Of a DNA stretch of 64,000 bases, positions 29,469-37,145 are shown in pieces (within the stretch, counting starts at the first letter, position 1; every line of letters begins with the position of its first letter). The notes under the pieces were generated by a model. The model made no database searches, was not told where the DNA came from, and worked only from the letters and a program-made list of their open reading frames with translations. The position numbers and the translations under genes are program-made. The stretch comes from Gemmobacter sp. 24YEA27 (GTDB lineage: Bacteria > Pseudomonadota > Alphaproteobacteria > Rhodobacterales > Rhodobacteraceae): the NCBI RefSeq assembly GCF_030052995.1, contig NZ_JASJPW010000001.1, positions 3,338,001 to 3,402,000 of the forward strand. The letters run 5' to 3'.

Positions 29469-30761
29469 ATGCCCTTCGCGAATGACCAGAGCCCAAAGGC
29501 TGACGGCTGGCAACTCCGGCTCTGGCTCTGGCTCAGGCCGCTTTTGCAGCCGCTGATGCGCCGGATCCTGCGCAGGCGGCTCGCACAGGGGCGCGAGGAT
29601 CCGCAGCGAATGGGCGAGAAACTGGGCGAAGCCACCCTGCCCCGCCCGCCGGGCCGCCTCGTGTGGCTGCATGCGGTCGGGCTTGGCGAGGTGATGGCGC
29701 TGCGCCCGCTGATCGCGCAGATGCGGGACCTCGCGCCGGATCTGCGGTTTCTGATCACCTCGACCGCGCGGTCTTCCGCGGGGGTGATCGGGCAGAACCT
29801 TCCCGAAGGCGCGGAGCATCAGTTCCTGCCGCTGGATGGGCCGGATTTCGGCGCGCGGTTTCTGGATCACTGGCAGCCGTCGCTGTCGGTGTGGTCGGAA
29901 CAGGATCTCTGGCCAGGCCTGATCTGCGACACCGCCCGGCGTGGCATTCCGCTGGCCTGGGTCAATGCGCGGATGAATGACGGCAGCCTGAAAAAACGCC
30001 GCCGCCTGCGCGGGCTCTACCGCGATGTCATGGCGCGTTTCGCCCTGATCGAGGCACAGGATGCCCGCAGCGCTGCGAACCTGCGCAAGCTGGGCGCGGC
30101 TTTCGTGCGCGAAGGCCATTCGCTGAAACCCGCCGCCGAACCGCTGAGCGTCGACAGCGGCGCGCTGACCGCGCTGCAGGCCACGCTGGCGGGGCGCCGC
30201 ATCATCATCGCCGCCTCGACCCATCCCGCCGATGAGGCGGTGCTGATCCCTGCCTTCCGCGACATCGCTGCGCAGGATCCTGCGGCGCTGCTGATCCTCG
30301 CCCCGCGCCTGCCCGCGCGCGCAGGCGAGATCGCGGCCGCACTTGACACGGCAGGCCTCAGCCATGCGCGCCGCAGCCTGGGCGAGACGCCCACGCCTGC
30401 CACCCGGGTCTGGCTTGCCGACACATTCGGCGAGCTGGGGCTTTGGTACCGCCTCGCCACCCAAGCCTTTATCGGCGGGGCGATGGGCGAGACCGGCGGT
30501 CATAATCCGTGGGAGGCGGTCTGCCTTGGTCTGCCCGTGATCCATGGGCCGAATGTGGCGAATTTCGCCCATGACTATGCCGGGCTTCACGCCGCCGGCC
30601 TTGCCACCGAAGTGCCGCCTGATCCGCTTGCCCTGAGCGCCGCCCTTGCCGCGCCCCTGACGGACGCCACCGCAAAGGCCGAAACCCTTGTCGGCGAGGC
30701 CCGCGCCGCGCTGCAACCACTCGCCGCCGATCTGGTCGCGCTGATCGGAGACCGCGCATGA
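29469..30761 (+). CDS. waaA: 3-deoxy-D-manno-octulosonic acid (Kdo) transferase, WaaA-type
   Basis: A 430-residue GT30 protein that adds Kdo from CMP-Kdo to lipid A precursor at the inner membrane. The N-terminal domain has LVWLHAVGLGEVMALRPL near residue 60 and, just before it, EKLGE, corresponding to the family ERLG motif with the catalytic glutamate. The C-terminal GT-B half has STHPADEAVL, LWYRLATQAFIGGAMGETGGHNPWEA and the nucleotide-sugar binding region. ATG 29469 is used; GTG 29427 is an alternative. Its stop overlaps the start of a second WaaA-like gene by four bases. Confidence 0.85.
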   Translation: MPFANDQSPKADGWQLRLWLWLRPLLQPLMRRILRRRLAQGREDPQRMGEKLGEATLPRPPGRLVWLHAVGLGEVMALRPLIAQMRDLAPDLRFLITSTARSSAGVIGQNLPEGAEHQFLPLDGPDFGARFLDHWQPSLSVWSEQDLWPGLICDTARRGIPLAWVNARMNDGSLKKRRRLRGLYRDVMARFALIEAQDARSAANLRKLGAAFVREGHSLKPAAEPLSVDSGALTALQATLAGRRIIIAASTHPADEAVLIPAFRDIAAQDPAALLILAPRLPARAGEIAAALDTAGLSHARRSLGETPTPATRVWLADTFGELGLWYRLATQAFIGGAMGETGGHNPWEAVCLGLPVIHGPNVANFAHDYAGLHAAGLATEVPPDPLALSAALAAPLTDATAKAETLVGEARAALQPLAADLVALIGDRA

Positions 30762-32124
30762 TCCTGCATCTCTTCCTGATCCTCTGGCGGCTTTTGTGGA
30801 TTCCGCTTTTGCCGCTTTTGCTGGTCTATCTCTGGCGGCGCGGCCGCCGCGATCCCGATTACACCCGCCACCTGGCCGAGCGCTTCGGCATCTATTCCCG
30901 CCCGCTGCCGCAGGGCGCGATCTGGTTTCATGCTGTCAGCCTTGGCGAGACGCGCTCGGCCACCGCGCTGATCCGCCTGTGCCTTGCGCGCGGAGACCAG
31001 GTCGTTCTTACCCATTTCACCCCTGCCGGAAGGCGCGAATCCGCCCGGCTTTTCGCGTCCGAGATCGCCTCGGGTCAGCTGGCGGCGGTCTGGGTGCCGC
31101 TGGATATGTTCTGGTGCTGGCGGCGGTTCTTCCGGGCCTGCCGCCCCCGGATCGGGCTGACGCTGGAGATCGAGATCTGGCCCGCGATGATCTTCGCAGC
31201 GCGGCGCGCGGGCGTGCCTTTGTTCATGTGCAATGCGCAATATCCCTCGCCCTCGCTGGCGCGTGACAGCAAGGGGCTGAGGCTGAGGCAAAGGGTGATC
31301 CGGGGATTTGCCGGGGCTTTCGTGAAATCCGAGCTGCAAAAAGCGCGGTTTGAAAGCATCGGTCTGGACACTATCACCGTCACCGGCGAGCTGCGGTTCG
31401 ATCAGCCGCTGCCGCCGGGCCTTGACGAGGCGGCAAGCGCGATCCGCCACTGGCTGGCGCCTGAGGGCCAGATCATCACCATCGCCAGCGGCGTCGAGGT
31501 CGAAGAGCCGATCTATGCGACCGTGATCCGCGAGATGCGAGATGCGGCCCAGGCCCGGGGTCTGCCCCCCCGCTGTTTCTCTATGTCCCCCGCGCGCCAG
31601 AACGGTTCGATGCGGTTTATGACGACCTGACCGCCCAGGGCCTGAACGTGCTGCGGCGCAGCAGCGCACTGCCCCCCGGGGCCGCCGGATTTGCCCATCG
31701 CCCGAATGGCAGTCACGATCTGGGCGAGGTGGATGTCTTCCTTGGCGACAGTCTGGGCGAGATGTTCTTCTGCCTCGCCCCGGCAGACCGGGTCGTGGTC
31801 GGCGGCGGCTTCAACCCGCGCGGCGCACATAATATTTCCGAGGCGCTGATGCTGATGAAGCCGGTGGTCACCGGCCCCTGGACCTGGACCATCGAATTCC
31901 CGTTCGAAGAGGCCGCCCTTGCCGGGGTCGCGGTCAGCCTCGGCAACCAGACCGACGCGCCCCCCGCACTCGCGGCCAGGCTGACCGCCGCGCTGTCGCA
32001 GCCCGACCAGACCGATCCGGCGCAGATCCGGGCCTTCCTCGACCAGCAGCAGGGCGCCAGCGCGCGAACGCTTGCGGCGATTGACCGGGTGCTTGCCGCC
32101 GGCACAGCGCGTCAGGTCGGATAG
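30758..32124 (+). CDS. Second Kdo transferase-like GT30 protein (frame broken)
   Basis: A WaaA paralogue. It has an N-terminal membrane anchor (about residues 1-27), then ERFGIYSRPLPQGAIWFHAVSLGE containing the catalytic-glutamate motif, EIEIWPAM and, after the break, DVFLGDSLGEMFFCLAPADRVVVGG with FNPRGAHNISEAL. The frame is lost in a run of seven C at 31565-31571. One extra C joins ...ARGLPPP to LFLYVPRAPERFDAVYDDL and gives about 455 residues. It overlaps the first waaA by ATGA, so both are cotranscribed. It may add a second Kdo or another octulosonate; the specificity cannot be read from sequence. Confidence 0.82.
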
Positions 32125-32295: not shown

Positions 32296-32631
32296 ATGCT
32301 TCCGCCCCCCCAGCCCCCCACCCTGAGAGGGCTGCTTGCCGCCCTGACGATTGCCACAGTCGCCGCTCCTGGCTTTGCCCTTGCGCAGGGCACTGTATCC
32401 GAGGCCCAGATCCTCGCCGGTCCCTGTGCCAGCTGCCACGGCCCCGCCGGCCAGTCGCCGGGCGCCATCCCCTCGATCGCCGGTCTCACGGAAGCCGATC
32501 TGACGGCGAAACTGACCGCGTTTCGCGACAACCCGCCCGCAGGCACCACCGTCATGACCCGCCATATGAAAGGCTATGATGACGGTCAGATCGCCGCCCT
32601 GGCGAAGTATTTCGCGGAGGTGGAAGGATGA
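32296..32631 (+). CDS. Monohaem cytochrome c subunit of flavocytochrome c sulfide dehydrogenase (FccA/SoxE-like)
   Basis: A 111-residue periplasmic cytochrome. It has a signal peptide (about 1-31, ending FALAQG), one haem-binding CASCH at about residues 44-48 and the likely axial methionine in [11 protein letters not shown]. Such c-type subunits accept electrons from the FAD subunit that oxidises sulfide. ATG 32296 has AGAGGA seven bases upstream. The stop overlaps the start of the flavoprotein gene by ATGA, as in fccAB and soxEF pairs. It has one haem, whereas the Allochromatium FccA has two. Confidence 0.82.
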
Positions 32632-33920
32632 ATACGACCCGCAGAACCCTCATCGCAGGCCTTGGGGCAGGCCTTGGCGCAGGCGCCGCCACTTTCGCGC
32701 TTCCTGGCCTGATCCGGGCGCAGAACGCCTCGGCCCATGTCGTCGTCGTGGGCGGCGGCTTTGGCGGCGCCACAGCGGCCCGCTACCTGCGCCGCTACAG
32801 CCCCGATCTGAAAATCACCCTGGTCGAGCCCTCGCAAACATTTGTCACCTGCCCGTTCTCGAACCTCTATCTCGGCGGGCTGCGGACCTGGGACAGCATC
32901 ACCCATGGCTACACCGCCCTTACCGCCGAGGGGATCGATGTCATCCACGCCAGTGCCGAACAGATCGACGGCGCGGCGAAGAAAGTGACGCTCTCGGATG
33001 GCACGGTGCTGGATTATGACCGGCTTGTCCTGTCGCCGGGCATCGACATCAAATGGGGCGCGCTGGAGGGCTATGACGAAGCCGCGTCAGACCGCGCGCC
33101 GCATGCCTGGAAGGCCGGGCCACAGACGCAGCTGCTGAAATCGCAGCTCGAGGCGATGGAGGATGGCGGCACATTCGTGATGTCGATCACCGATGGCGCC
33201 TTCCGCTGCCCGCCGGGGCCCTATGAGCGTGCCTCGCTGGTGGCGCATTACCTGAAAACCAACAAGCCGAAATCGAAGATCCTGCTTCTCGACAGCAAAG
33301 AGACCTTCTCGAAACAGGGATTGTTCAAACAGGGATGGGAGGCGCTTTACGGCGATATGATCGAATGGATCAGCGCCGATAATGACGGCAAGGTTGCAAA
33401 GGTCGATGCCGGCGCCCTGACGGTCGAGACCGCATTTGGTGTGACGCATAAGGCCGATGTACTGAATGTGGTGCCGCCGCAGAAAGCGGGCTGGATCGCA
33501 GACCGCGCCGGGGTCACCAATGACACCGGCTGGGTGCCGGTGAAGGGCAACACGTTCGAATCCGCGCAGGTGCCGGGGATCTATGTGGTGGGCGACGCGA
33601 CCATTGCCGCCCCGATGCCGAAATCGGGTTTCTGTGCCAATGCGCAGGGCAAGGTGGCGGCCGCCGCGATCATCGCCGATCTGGCAGGCGCCGAGCCGGC
33701 GCCGGCGAGTTTCGTCAACACCTGTTACAGCCTTGTGGGCCCGGAATGGGGGATCTCGGTCGCCGGGGTCTATTATTTCGACGGCGAGAAGATCGCCGAG
33801 CGCGAAGGCTCCGGCGGGGTCAGCCCGCTTGAGGCCGATGCCAGCTTCCGCCAGGCCGAAGCGGTTTATGGCGCGGGCTGGTATGCCTCGATCAGCGCCG
33901 ATACCTGGGGTACGGTATGA
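32628..33920 (+). CDS. Sulfide dehydrogenase flavoprotein subunit (FccB/SoxF-like)
   Basis: A 430-residue periplasmic flavoprotein with a twin-arginine-type leader (TTRRTLIAG, about 1-32) and an FAD-binding GGGFGG at about 42-47. It has the FAD-linking cysteine context [13 protein letters not shown]. The redox-active cysteine pair of the family is in [11 protein letters not shown] and NTCYSL. It oxidises sulfide to sulfur or polysulfide and passes electrons to the cytochrome encoded just upstream. The export signal implies folding with FAD in the cytoplasm before Tat transport. All key residues are present. Confidence 0.9.
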
Positions 33921-33947
33921 GGGCATAAACAGGTTAAGGACGGCTCA

Positions 33948-34982
33948 ATGGACGCGGTAACTCTCGGTCTTGGTCTTGGCTTTGTGTTCGGGGCCGCGGC
34001 CAGGGCGGGGAAGTTCTGCCTCCTGCGGGGAATGAAAGGGCTGATGGGCGGGGGGGATCTCTCGCCCCTTCGCGCATTCGCGCTGGCGCTCGCGGTGGCG
34101 ATTGCCGGTACCCAGGCGCTGAATTTCCTCGGGCTGACCGATCTGTCGCGCGCGCTGCCGTTGCGGGGGTCGTTTGCCGCAGGCGGGCTCTTCATCGGCG
34201 GCGCGGTTTTCGGGCTGGGCATGGTGCTGGCCAATGCCTGTGGTGCGCGCTCGCTGGTCTTGCTGGCAGGGGGCAATCTGCGGTCACTTCTGGTGCTGTT
34301 ATGCCTTGGGCTGGCGGCCCAGGCCAGCCTGACCGGTGTATTGGCCCCCTGGCGCCAGGCGCTGCAACTGGGTCAGATCAGCCCTGAAGCGCTGAGCCTG
34401 ACCGGATTCCTGCGCGGGTTTGGCCTTTCGCCGATGATCGCGCTTGTGCTGGCGGCGGGCCTGCCGGTGCTGATCCTGATCTGGTTCGCGCGCCCGGTTT
34501 TGAAACGGCCGGTCGAGGCGTTTTCCGCCCTTGTGATCGGGCTTTGCGTGGTCGCGGGCTGGTGGATCAGTTTCACCACCGATGACCCGTTCGACCCGAA
34601 AATCCTGTCTTCCATCAGCTTTGTCGCGCCCGTCGGCGAAGGGTTTTTATGGCTGATGTTGTCCTCGGGCCGCGCGGTCGCCTTCGGCCTCGCCGTGGTC
34701 GGAGGCACTCTTGCGGGCGCCTTCCTCATCGCGCTCGTCACCCGCAGCTTCGCGCTGGAAAGTTTCACCTCGGGAAGCCATTCCCTGATTGCCGCCCTTG
34801 GAGGAATTTTGATGGGCTTTGGCGGCGTTCTTGCAATGGGTTGTTCTATCGGGCAAGCTTTGAGCGGTGTCTCGACACTTTCGCTGGCCAGTCTGGTCGC
34901 AAGCGCCGGTATTCTCGCGGGGATTGTGGCTGGTCTGGCTGTGATGCGCCAGACAACTCTCGGGAGGAGTTCCAGCCAATGA
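33948..34982 (+). CDS. YeeE/YedE (SoxT/TsuA-type) sulfur-compound transporter
   Basis: A 344-residue inner-membrane protein with about nine to ten hydrophobic segments. It has the conserved cysteine motifs of YeeE proteins: AGKFCLLRG near residue 22, VLANACGARSLVLLAGG near 95 and GVLAMGCSIGQALSG near 300. Members move thiosulfate or sulfur-containing ions across the inner membrane and several are encoded in sox clusters as SoxT. It lies 27 bases after the FccB-like gene and overlaps the next flavoprotein start by ATGA. The transported species here is inferred. Confidence 0.88.
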   Translation: MDAVTLGLGLGFVFGAAARAGKFCLLRGMKGLMGGGDLSPLRAFALALAVAIAGTQALNFLGLTDLSRALPLRGSFAAGGLFIGGAVFGLGMVLANACGARSLVLLAGGNLRSLLVLLCLGLAAQASLTGVLAPWRQALQLGQISPEALSLTGFLRGFGLSPMIALVLAAGLPVLILIWFARPVLKRPVEAFSALVIGLCVVAGWWISFTTDDPFDPKILSSISFVAPVGEGFLWLMLSSGRAVAFGLAVVGGTLAGAFLIALVTRSFALESFTSGSHSLIAALGGILMGFGGVLAMGCSIGQALSGVSTLSLASLVASAGILAGIVAGLAVMRQTTLGRSSSQ

Positions 34983-36325
34983 TGAAAGCCCCGCATTTCA
35001 CCCGCCGCAAGCTGCTGACCGCCGCGCCGTCGCTGGCGCTTCTGACCGGGATCGGCGGGGCCGCCCTGGCCGCGCCCGAAGGTCTGACATCCGAGACGCT
35101 CCTGATGTCGCGCTCGGGCAAGGGCCCGAGGATCGTCATTTGTGGCGGCGGCTGGGGCGGGCTTTCCGCCGCGCGCCATCTGCGCGAAGAGCTCCCCGGG
35201 GCCGAGATCATCGTGCTGGAGAGGAACCCGATCTTCTGGTCCTGCCCGATGTCGAACAAATGGCTGATCGACGTGGTCGACACTGCTTTTCTGACCCAGG
35301 ACCTGCTGCGCCCGGCGCAGAAATGGGGCTATTCCCTCGTGCACTGCGAGGTGACGAATATCGATCGGGCGGCAAAGACCGTCCATACTTCAAAGGGCAA
35401 GGTCGATTACGATTTCCTGATCCTCGCCGGGGGCATCCGCAACGCCTATGAGGCCTGGTTCGGCGAGGACCGCCAGGCCGCCGAATATACCCGCCAGAAT
35501 TTCGGATCGGCCTATATCCCGAATGCCGAGCATCTCGCGCTGAAAAACAAGATCCACAATTTAAAGGGCGGCACCATCGTGATGACGCTGCCGCCGCCAC
35601 CGCATCGCTGCCCGCCCTCGCCCTATGAGCGCGCCTGCGTGATGGCCTGGCATTTCAAGGTAAACAACATCCCGGCAAAGATCCTCATTCTCGATCCGAA
35701 ACCGCAGATCGCCCCGATCGGCGCCGGCTATGAGGCAGCGTTTGAGGAGCTTTACCCCGATATCATCACCCATGTGCCAAATGCGAAGGTGAAAGAGGTC
35801 GATCCCTATAACAAGCGGATCATGACCGAGGCCGGGGATTTCGACTTTGACGATGCGGTCTTCATGCCGCCGCATCAGGCATCAGACATGGTCTGGTATG
35901 CCGACCTGATCGGCAAGGGCGAAGACGGCAGGCCGACCGGCTGGGCCGATATGGATCCACGTTTCTTCACCGCGCGGGGCGATGACAGCGTCTATATCAT
36001 CGGGGATTCCATGGGCGCGATTTCCCCGCATTTCGGCCATTACCCGAAATCGGGCCATGTCGCGAACTATATCGGGCGGATCGTGGCCGGGAATATCGGC
36101 CAGCGGGTCAGGGGCGAGGATGTGGTGGCGGAACTGCCCGATAATCTGTGCTATATGCTGGTGAATGGCGACCCGCAGGAGGCGATCTCGGTCGAGTTCA
36201 CCTATGCGGTCGGCCAGGACGGTCTGGTACATCAGACGCAGATCGACATCGATGTGCGGACACCAGATCTCATGGCCGAGGATTTTGTCTGGATTGATGG
36301 GATGTTCAATGACTTCCTGCGCTGA
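34979..36325 (+). CDS. Second FccB/SoxF-like FAD-dependent sulfide dehydrogenase flavoprotein
   Basis: A 448-residue periplasmic flavoprotein distinct from the first. It has a twin-arginine leader (FTRRKLLTAAPSLALL, about 1-34), dinucleotide motif GGGWGG, the FAD-linking cysteine context FWSCPMSNKW and the redox cysteines in HRCPPSPYERACVMAW and DNLCYMLVN. It keeps every catalytic position of the family but has no dedicated cytochrome gene next to it. ATG 34979 overlaps the transporter stop and has GGAGGAG upstream. It may share the upstream cytochrome or act on sulfur bound to SoxYZ; this is inference. Confidence 0.87.
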   Translation: MMKAPHFTRRKLLTAAPSLALLTGIGGAALAAPEGLTSETLLMSRSGKGPRIVICGGGWGGLSAARHLREELPGAEIIVLERNPIFWSCPMSNKWLIDVVDTAFLTQDLLRPAQKWGYSLVHCEVTNIDRAAKTVHTSKGKVDYDFLILAGGIRNAYEAWFGEDRQAAEYTRQNFGSAYIPNAEHLALKNKIHNLKGGTIVMTLPPPPHRCPPSPYERACVMAWHFKVNNIPAKILILDPKPQIAPIGAGYEAAFEELYPDIITHVPNAKVKEVDPYNKRIMTEAGDFDFDDAVFMPPHQASDMVWYADLIGKGEDGRPTGWADMDPRFFTARGDDSVYIIGDSMGAISPHFGHYPKSGHVANYIGRIVAGNIGQRVRGEDVVAELPDNLCYMLVNGDPQEAISVEFTYAVGQDGLVHQTQIDIDVRTPDLMAEDFVWIDGMFNDFLR

Positions 36326-36326
36326 A

Positions 36327-36806
36327 ATGAACCGCCGTCAGGTGATGATCATGGGGACAGCAATGGGGGCGGCGCTTGGCGTCTCTCCGTTTCTGGGAAC
36401 CGCAGCGGCAGCACAAAGCTCGACCGCAGCCGCACGCGCCGATACCGCAGAATCCGACCGCATTGCGGCGGAATTCATCGGCACGGCAGAAGCGGTGAGC
36501 GAGGGCCTCGCGCTTGACCTGCCGGCTCTTGGCGACAACCCTTCGGCGGTGCCGGTCCGGGTGCATGTGACGGAAACAATCACCGATGACATCTGGTGTG
36601 AGGAACTGATCGTGCTGGCCGAGCGGAACCCGATGCCGCTGGCCTGCCGGTTCCGCTTTTCTCAGGCCAGTGGTGCGGCAGATGTGGCGGTCAGGCTGCG
36701 GCTGATCGAGACGATGCATGTGCGCGCGCTGGCGCGGATGAATGATAGCCGGGTGTTCGACACCCGCGGCCAGATCACCGTCGCCGCCGGCGGCTGCGGC
36801 CTTTAA
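36327..36806 (+). CDS. soxY: Thiosulfate-oxidation carrier protein SoxY
   Basis: A 159-residue periplasmic carrier. It has a twin-arginine leader (MNRRQVMIMG, hydrophobic to about residue 32) and an Ig-like domain. The C-terminal swinging arm ends GGCGL, the cysteine to which sulfur intermediates are attached in Sox metabolism. The canonical ending is GGCGG, so the last residue is changed. ATG 36327 is one base after the upstream stop; an in-frame ATG at 36309 inside the flavoprotein gene is possible but less likely. It is followed by soxZ 14 bases on. Confidence 0.88.
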   Translation: MNRRQVMIMGTAMGAALGVSPFLGTAAAAQSSTAAARADTAESDRIAAEFIGTAEAVSEGLALDLPALGDNPSAVPVRVHVTETITDDIWCEELIVLAERNPMPLACRFRFSQASGAADVAVRLRLIETMHVRALARMNDSRVFDTRGQITVAAGGCGL

Positions 36807-36819
36807 GGAGGATGTAAGG

Positions 36820-37145
36820 ATGGCAAATCCCCCCGGATCTGGCTGAGCAATGAGACGCCCGCAAAAGACGAGATCGTCCGGGTGCGCGCCCAGGTCGTGC
36901 ATATCATGGAAAGCGGTCTGCGCCTTGATGCGGCAGGCGCCCCGATCCCTCGCGACACACTGACGCGGTTCGAGGCCAGGCTGGGGGAGACCCTGGTGCT
37001 GGACTGGCTGCCGGAAACGGCAATCTCGCAAAATCCCTATATCGAGTTCACCTTCAAAGCGCGCGAAAGCGCTGTGCTGAAAATGACCTGGACCGATCAG
37101 CATGGCGTCCTGGCAGAGGCCGGGCGACAGATCACCCTATCCTGA
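36820..37145 (+). CDS. soxZ: Thiosulfate-oxidation complex protein SoxZ (frame broken at codon 4-5)
   Basis: Partner of SoxY. The ATG at 36820 has GGAGG eight bases upstream, but the frame stops after eight codons. One more C in the run of six at 36829-36834 gives MANPPRIWLSNETPAKDEIV followed by VRAQVVHIMESGLR and a normal 108-residue SoxZ ending GRQITLS. SoxZ has no signal and is exported bound to SoxY by the Tat route. It is the last gene of the sulfide island and ends 18 bases before a double hairpin. Confidence 0.87.

Follow-up and report, generated by a model that had tools for sequence, protein, structure and literature searches.

Within a 64,000-nucleotide stretch of the Gemmobacter sp. 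24YEA27 genome (contig NZ_JASJPW010000001.1, positions 3,338,001 to 3,402,000 of the forward strand; hereafter the window), positions 32296..37145 hold a block of six genes in which the components of a flavocytochrome c sulfide dehydrogenase (FCSD), a sulfur transporter, and a second FCSD-like flavoprotein, here called FccB2, stand beside genes for the sulfur carrier SoxYZ. We refer to the window's own genome as G000, to other genomes by other G numbers, and to loci by L numbers. The six genes, with their Pfam matches, are:

32296..32631, plus strand: small monoheme c-type cytochrome (CASCH), FccA-like, probable partner of FccB1 (PF00034, 33.6 bits)
32628..33920, plus strand: FccB1, flavocytochrome c sulfide dehydrogenase flavoprotein with a twin-arginine start (PF21706, 165.9 bits; PF09242, 94.3 bits)
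33948..34982, plus strand: YeeE/SoxT-like membrane sulfur transporter (PF04143, 180.4 bits)
34979..36325, plus strand: FccB2, FCSD-like flavoprotein with a twin-arginine start, a C211/C391 redox pair, and a subfamily-specific C220 (PF21706, 88.6 bits)
36327..36806, plus strand: SoxY carrier with an MNRRQ start, an arm ending GGCGL, and carrier Cys157 (PF13501, 86.6 bits)
36819..37145, plus strand: SoxZ frame, disrupted near its expected start (PF08770, 77.6 bits)

An earlier sequence-only reading had proposed these six genes, and all are present at the coordinates it gave, on one strand and filling the block. Overlaps of 4 bases join the cytochrome gene to FccB1 and YeeE to FccB2, a gap of 1 base separates FccB2 from SoxY, and all neighbors without an overlap lie 1 to 27 bases apart; judging from these overlaps and short gaps, the six genes likely form one transcription unit. 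To place the block in a wider context, we used an alignment of 23 FccB2 sequences to scan 84,980 species genomes, identified 267 relatives, and studied the loci of the best 80 of these 267. A loose twin-arginine pattern was found within the first 60 residues in 81/81 aligned rows of FccB2 and 62/64 rows of FccB1. Because of this pattern and the MNRRQ start of SoxY, FccB1, FccB2, and SoxY are probably exported, and SoxZ probably leaves together with SoxY, as in Sox systems.

The cytochrome and FccB1 resemble the FccAB/SoxEF type of FCSD (1fcd, 3vrd, 5n1t) in domains, cysteines, and order: the central and C-terminal domains, the flavin-tether cysteine, the redox cysteine pair, and an adjoining c-type cytochrome are all present. 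FccB1 matched the structures 5n1t_A (E 1.4e-147) and 1fcd_A (E 1e-128). Cysteine positions were placed by alignment to 1fcd, and the roles given to them here, flavin tether and redox pair, are those we take them to have in this family. In column counts of the module-linked FccB1 rows, C75 and C194 were each kept in 64/64 and C366 in 63/64. Clustering of open reading frames (ORFs) recovered a homolog of the cytochrome in 62 of the 80 related loci.

FccB2 shares part of this description. Its AlphaFold2 model (predicted local distance difference test score, pLDDT, 86.2; predicted template modeling score, pTM, 0.85) matched 5n1t, 3vrd, and 1fcd in Foldseek, with template modeling scores of 0.87-0.89 on the target and 0.78-0.79 on the query, and so is predicted to have the FCSD flavoprotein fold. 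The redox pair C211/C391 was kept in 81/81 rows, by column count in an alignment with FccB1 of the same loci. FccB2 differs from the FccAB/SoxEF enzymes in matching PF21706 without a match to PF09242, in its location with SoxYZ, and in two cysteines. The flavin-tether cysteine, present in 64/64 FccB1 rows, occurs in only 21/81 FccB2 rows, while an extra cysteine nine residues past C211, C220, is found in 81/81 FccB2 rows and 0/64 FccB1 rows. FccB2 is also only 32% identical to the window's FccB1. Together, these features mark FccB2 as a distinct subfamily. The earlier description of the second flavoprotein as having all redox cysteines therefore holds for the pair C211 and C391, and in the window for the tether (C89) too, but the tether is not a conserved property of the subfamily. 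One candidate difference, loss of the second redox cysteine at a KSGHVAN segment, was rejected, as the 1fcd alignment and column count place the true position at C391, which is invariant. The SoxF of Chlorobaculum and Paracoccus is presumably likewise an FCSD-like flavoprotein that is monomeric and works with SoxYZ or in its vicinity, a resemblance in description rather than in compared sequences. Going by the title of a 2010 study by Ogawa, thiosulfate oxidation in vitro is reportedly stimulated by a monomeric flavoprotein, soxF, from Chlorobaculum tepidum.

The window's SoxY and SoxZ share with the Sox carrier (2oxg, 4uwq) the SoxY and SoxZ domains and a C-terminal carrier cysteine on a Gly-rich arm. 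Both fall below the NCBIfam cut-offs, SoxY scoring 85.1 against a cut-off of 125 for true SoxY (TIGR04488) and SoxZ 74.5 against 76 (TIGR04490). Unlike the Sox carrier, which ends in GGCGG, the window's SoxY ends in GGCGL, and the arm of module-linked SoxY ends in CG[MLI] in 67/71 cases, the exceptions being L088 (GGCGG), L089 (GGCGE), and L095 and L104 (both GGCNG). To avoid circularity, comparison SoxY proteins were picked by their position near SoxB and not by their tail. Those within 5 kb of an over-cut-off SoxB ended in GGCGG in 15/15 cases, and SoxY proteins adjacent to SoxA did so in 16/21, with other tails in the remaining 5. When arm tips were removed, the 72 linked SoxY rows formed one side of a branch with a Shimodaira-Hasegawa-like approximate likelihood ratio test (SH-aLRT) support of 94, in a quick tree with few columns and some long branches. 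Since the linked SoxY proteins are one lineage, the CG[MLI] tip may represent a single event rather than 67.

The window's YeeE has the Sulf_transp domain and three channel cysteines of SoxT1/SoxT2 and TsuA, members of the YeeE family. It differs from them in scoring 70.7 bits against the NCBIfam TsuA model, far under the cut-off of 400, and in being only 32-35% identical to the YeeE proteins of five sox regions. The channel cysteines C24, C98, and C299 were kept in 53/53 linked rows and in 8/8 other rows; because they are kept equally in non-linked copies, they are no marker of the module. In the YeeE tree, with the L186 copy left out, the branch dividing linked proteins from seven sox-region copies was weak (SH-aLRT 31) and one label change was needed, and a separate YeeE lineage is thus not established.

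We then asked what G000 holds besides this block. The assembly (5.08 Mb, 12 contigs, 98.6% complete) contains a single SoxY match, the block's own. SoxA (TIGR04484) gave 0 matches in G000, in a search that was over cut-off in 19/43 other genomes, and SoxC (TIGR04555) gave 0 matches, in a search over cut-off in 3/24 genomes; SoxX and SoxD were not searched. No SoxB exceeded the 550-bit cut-off, the sole match being one of 58 bits located away from the block, and weak SoxB-type matches of this kind also arose in 10/14 control genomes. In these respects G000 differs from an organism with the Sox thiosulfate system. The proposal that the block lacks SoxXAB and SoxCD is thus borne out for SoxA, SoxB, and SoxC, and these searches found no full sox cluster elsewhere in the genome. 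With no SoxA or SoxC and no over-cut-off SoxB, we rejected the possibility that the block works in trans with a Sox core of G000.

The block is conserved both within and beyond the genus. FccB2 and SoxY occurred together in 7 of 13 genus genomes and neither was present in the other 6, where SoxY was lacking and searches at E 1e-20 found nothing resembling FccB1 or FccB2. Besides the window's own, the genus copies of FccB2 were 78-98% identical, with the G004 copy in broken pieces. The order FccB1-YeeE-FccB2-SoxY-SoxZ-HIT was retained in the six intact genus genomes as far as their sequence pieces reach. SoxY was present as one copy each in G000, G001, G004, G006, and G008, as three copies in G005, and as two in G009. 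Paracoccus sp. IB05 (98% in FccB2) is closely related, and further relatives are Pseudogemmobacter hezensis, humi, and faecipullorum; the source strain is therefore most likely a Pseudogemmobacter. Across the best 80 loci, identity to FccB2 was 60-83%, except for the two nearest at 95 and 98%, and the taxa, drawn from alpha- and betaproteobacteria, included Paracoccaceae, Neomegalonema, Hyphomicrobiales, Comamonadaceae, Alcaligenaceae, Zoogloea, Rubrivivax, and Lautropia. FccB2 was followed by SoxY-SoxZ in 71/78 readable loci (80 minus L052 and L073, which end upstream of SoxY), the exact six-gene order was found in 40/80, and FccB1 and YeeE were nearby in 64/80 and 54/80, respectively. YeeE was absent from 26/80 loci, some of them cut short.

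No SoxA or SoxB lay within 8 kb of FccB2 in the 80 loci once spurious matches (antisense frames, L050) were dropped; the SoxB-like match in L050 was 22-27% identical to a protein that itself scored 67.5 bits against the SoxB cut-off of 550. When all ORFs were clustered, 14 families were present in at least 20 loci, namely the six genes and eight unlabeled families. The latter are shadow frames, with 85-100% of their ORFs overlapping one of the six genes, and the six genes therefore look like the whole set. Among the families common to at least 20 loci, none was recognized as a regulator or as TusA. Ratios of nonsynonymous to synonymous substitution (dN/dS) over comparable codons were 0.06-0.40 in 15 comparisons and 0 in one, consistent with purifying selection. 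Collectively, co-conservation of the six genes reaches far beyond the genus, the set is a standing module rather than a fragment, and its steadiest core is FccB2-SoxY-SoxZ. Among 72,556 plasmid records, one, a 402-kb plasmid of Paracoccus alcaliphilus (NZ_CP067126.1:20645-21892), carries FccB2 beside SoxY, and this copy represents a possible route of module spread.

Independence from SoxXAB was examined in 43 of the best 80 genomes, mostly isolates and chosen by us, plus G000. SoxY was found in 44/44 of these FccB2 genomes, versus 105/194 relatives of the window's genome, which are a different taxon set. Neither SoxA nor SoxB was over cut-off in 25 of the 44, and SoxB was over cut-off in 16/43, not counting G201, where two pieces fell below it. 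In 16/25 of the SoxA/SoxB-less genomes the module's SoxY was the only one, and the other 9 had two to four SoxY proteins. Of six sox regions that were read, five held their own SoxYZ and YeeE and two their own FccB-type protein, with 28-47% identity to the window's proteins, and the sixth, L185, held none of the six module genes. The module is thus independent of SoxAB.

Other arrangements of SoxYZ were observed in the course of this comparison. A further kind of SoxY (L192, L194, L195, L189, L191) adjoins SoxA, not an over-cut-off SoxB, and has tails such as GACTALPGRY, GACESLTVRY, and GACLEE; it represents another Sox variant without SoxB, different from the six-gene module. In Paracandidimonas soli, L186:5377-9387 (minus strand) encodes cytochrome c-FccB1-YeeE followed by one open frame with SoxY and SoxZ domains, another FCSD-SoxYZ pairing that is separate from the strain's FccB2-SoxYZ locus. 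In Aquamicrobium zhengzhouense, SoxZ-SoxY (tail GGCTG) adjoins an FccB1-type protein at L188:7309-9485 (minus strand), away from the FccB2 locus.

How might a SoxYZ carrier be used without its usual partners? According to an excerpt of PMC5336275, sulfane chains are carried on the arm of SoxY, and sulfide does not react with SoxYZ unless the carrier cysteine bears a leaving group. Loading of SoxYZ from sulfide would therefore need an oxidizing enzyme. FCSD-type flavoproteins are sulfide-oxidizing enzymes of the sort needed. Evolutionary-distance partial correlations computed over 44 loci were 0.30 for FccB2-SoxY and 0.41 for FccB2-SoxZ, against -0.12 for FccB1-SoxY and -0.01 for FccB1-SoxZ. 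Because FccB2, unlike FccB1, is the steadiest SoxYZ neighbor and has distances that track those of SoxY and SoxZ, we assign it the role of SoxYZ partner and regard FccAB as the bulk sulfide dehydrogenase. The partial correlation for YeeE-SoxY was 0.42, in keeping with SoxYZ passing sulfur on to the transporter. An excerpt of PMC11582611 sets out the proposal that SoxT imports sulfur from SoxYZ and ascribes import and regulatory roles to canonical soxT genes.

We propose that the block is a self-contained periplasmic sulfide-oxidizing module that would use SoxYZ without SoxXA, SoxB, and SoxCD, and in which FccB2 would exchange sulfane sulfur with SoxYZ; judged from sequence comparisons, this proposal seems to us about evenly poised between right and wrong. 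The cytochrome and FccB1 would, by homology, form an ordinary flavocytochrome c sulfide dehydrogenase for bulk sulfide oxidation. FccB2 would act as a dedicated partner of SoxYZ that either oxidizes sulfide or accepts persulfide made by FccB1 and would then place sulfane sulfur on the SoxY arm cysteine by direct transfer, with electrons leaving through the small cytochrome c. Where present, YeeE could use its three channel cysteines to bring SoxYZ sulfur into the cell, where it would be assimilated or oxidized; this import step is plausible, and because YeeE is absent from 26/80 loci it must be optional rather than obligatory everywhere. The sequence-only reading had sulfur passing from the flavocytochrome to SoxYZ and then to the transporter. 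Co-conservation of the genes and their occurrence in SoxAB-free genomes support this outline, but with YeeE near FccB2 in 54/80 loci its transporter step cannot be obligatory everywhere.

In 16 genomes with an FccB1-less locus, an FccB1-type protein was found elsewhere in 12. Two of the remaining four (L042 and L095, in the metagenome-assembled genomes G227 and G237) have FccB2-SoxYZ; SoxA and SoxB are present in the L095 genome. FccB2 and SoxYZ may therefore act without FccAB. For the fate of imported sulfur, we searched PF13686, which we take to be a proxy for DsrE2/E3-type sulfur transferases. It matched in 1/22 genomes, a Hyphomicrobium, and not in G000; it is a proxy family, and the sHdr/Dsr subunits themselves were not searched. 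TusA was found in 22/22 genomes tested but also in 11/14 controls and was uninformative.

Several observations weigh against this proposal. The partial correlations for FccB2-YeeE (-0.45) and FccB1-FccB2 (0.49) are not explained by it, and block transfer or shuffling of gene order and operons can yield such distance correlations, which should be regarded as soft evidence. No FccB1-type protein was found in 4/16 genomes with an FccB1-less locus, and a relay from FccB1 to SoxYZ is therefore not universal. SoxA was over cut-off in 19/44 FccB2 genomes. FccB2 occurred without the other five genes in 7/80 loci (L074, L075, L099, L106, L109, L111, L112), and the four of these genomes that were tested for SoxB (L074, L075, L106, L109) were all positive. 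For canonical Paracoccus SoxYZ, degradation of H2S needed all Sox proteins, as given in an excerpt of PMC5371076. In G004 (L009), the frames of YeeE, FccB2, and SoxZ are all interrupted and FccB1 was absent from the matches listed, so that either the module appears to be decaying or this part of the assembly is of low quality. Lastly, the window's SoxZ has no in-frame ATG, GTG, or TTG before its first conserved motif, nor upstream of the GTG at 36882.

In those four SoxB-bearing genomes it is as if lone FccB2 were serving the canonical SoxYZ.

The SoxZ break lies in the start region at 36807-36882 (plus strand), and a start codon is present in the four relatives compared (L034, L005, L006, L008). 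The upstream flank of the block holds two kdo transferase genes and an aconitase, and the second kdo transferase (30758-32124, plus strand) is split over two frames in the window and is a single frame in L034 and L035. Two breaks within 6 kb suggest sequence errors, although the SoxZ start break may alternatively be a real defect. Downstream lie genes for a HIT protein, a glycosyltransferase, a sulfotransferase, and a urate oxidase-like protein, and the gene content of both flanks is unremarkable.

Other explanations assign the same genes different work. FccB2 could be a SoxF-type maintenance enzyme that strips or rearranges blocked SoxYZ conjugates, with SoxYZ loaded non-enzymatically by polysulfide made by FccB1. 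The soxF effect named in the title of Ogawa's 2010 study would be a precedent, SoxS/DsbA-type partners of SoxYZ are discussed in the excerpted part of PMC11582611, and with no PF09242 match and 60/81 rows without the tether cysteine, FccB2 need not be a cytochrome-coupled dehydrogenase. We nevertheless consider this role unlikely, since FccB2 retains the FCSD fold and, in 81/81 rows, the FCSD redox pair, and since it is FccB2 and not FccB1 that is the steadiest neighbor of SoxYZ, including in G227 and G237, where the pair occurs without an FccB1-type match. Alternatively, two functions might share one operon, with FccAB detoxifying sulfide while SoxYZ and YeeE serve sulfur assimilation or sensing. 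The distances of FccB1 and YeeE do group (partial correlation 0.73), and the dual import and regulatory roles described for canonical soxT in the PMC11582611 excerpt would accommodate such a division. This possibility seems slightly less likely still to us, as YeeE is gone from 26/80 loci while FccB2 mostly remains with SoxYZ, and no regulator or TusA was recognized among the widely shared families.

The presence of SoxA in 19/44 and SoxB in 16/43 FccB2 genomes over cut-off would fit a block that is left over from, or an accessory to, a full Sox system and acts in trans with SoxXAB and SoxCD. We give this explanation next to no credence: G000 is without over-cut-off SoxA, SoxB, and SoxC, 25/44 genomes are without SoxA and SoxB, five of six sox regions hold their own SoxYZ and YeeE and two their own FccB-type protein at 28-47% identity, dN/dS is below 1, and the linked SoxY proteins are one lineage. 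A degenerate Sox remnant was rejected on selection, SoxY lineage, and distribution.

The idea of an Fcc with a lone SoxYZ is not wholly new. In 2016, bins of SAR324 were described with a flavocytochrome c flanked by SoxY and SoxZ and no other sox subunit, and a novel soxYZ-only mechanism was suggested, as excerpted from PMC4782131. Common to the SAR324 arrangement and the module is the idea that Fcc works with a sox complex reduced to soxYZ; they differ in that the former comes from draft bins, compared here by description only, and that the excerpted account mentions neither a second flavoprotein nor an arm tip nor occurrence in a broader range of organisms. In symbionts, a divergent SoxY lies near YeeE, DsrAB, and alcohol dehydrogenases, with no FccB neighbor named in the excerpt of PMC11237559, and the excerpts of PMC11034169, PMC13047784, PMC7074706, and PMC10708946 contained nothing closer to the module. 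In listings from searches of open-licence PubMed Central papers, no description of FccB2, Cys220, the CG[MLI] tip, or their distribution came up. The picture that emerges is of an FCSD-SoxYZ module that is widespread, does not depend on SoxXAB, and has a flavoprotein and a SoxY lineage of its own.

Tentatively, and with somewhat less than even confidence, we further suggest that FccB2 is a sulfide:SoxY persulfide synthase, which would oxidize sulfide straight onto the arm cysteine of a dedicated SoxYZ and in which Cys211, Cys391, and Cys220 would form a relay and the hydrophobic CG[MLI] tip of SoxY a docking mark, in a Sox-carrier pathway without SoxXA and SoxB that would be widespread in heterotrophs such as Comamonas, Alcaligenes, and relatives of Paracoccus. 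Genomes with soxYZ and without soxXAB are easily booked as having an incomplete or doubtful Sox system. One such case is Alcaligenes faecalis NLF5-7, listed with a "SOX system (soxY, soxZ)" in the excerpted part of PMC9872586. If the proposal is true, the FccB2 Cys220 and the CG[MLI] tip of SoxY would help distinguish this module from true Sox in genomes, many heterotrophs of sludge, soil, and wastewater would possess an unrecognized sulfide-oxidizing route, and SoxYZ would be a general periplasmic carrier of sulfane sulfur rather than part of one pathway.

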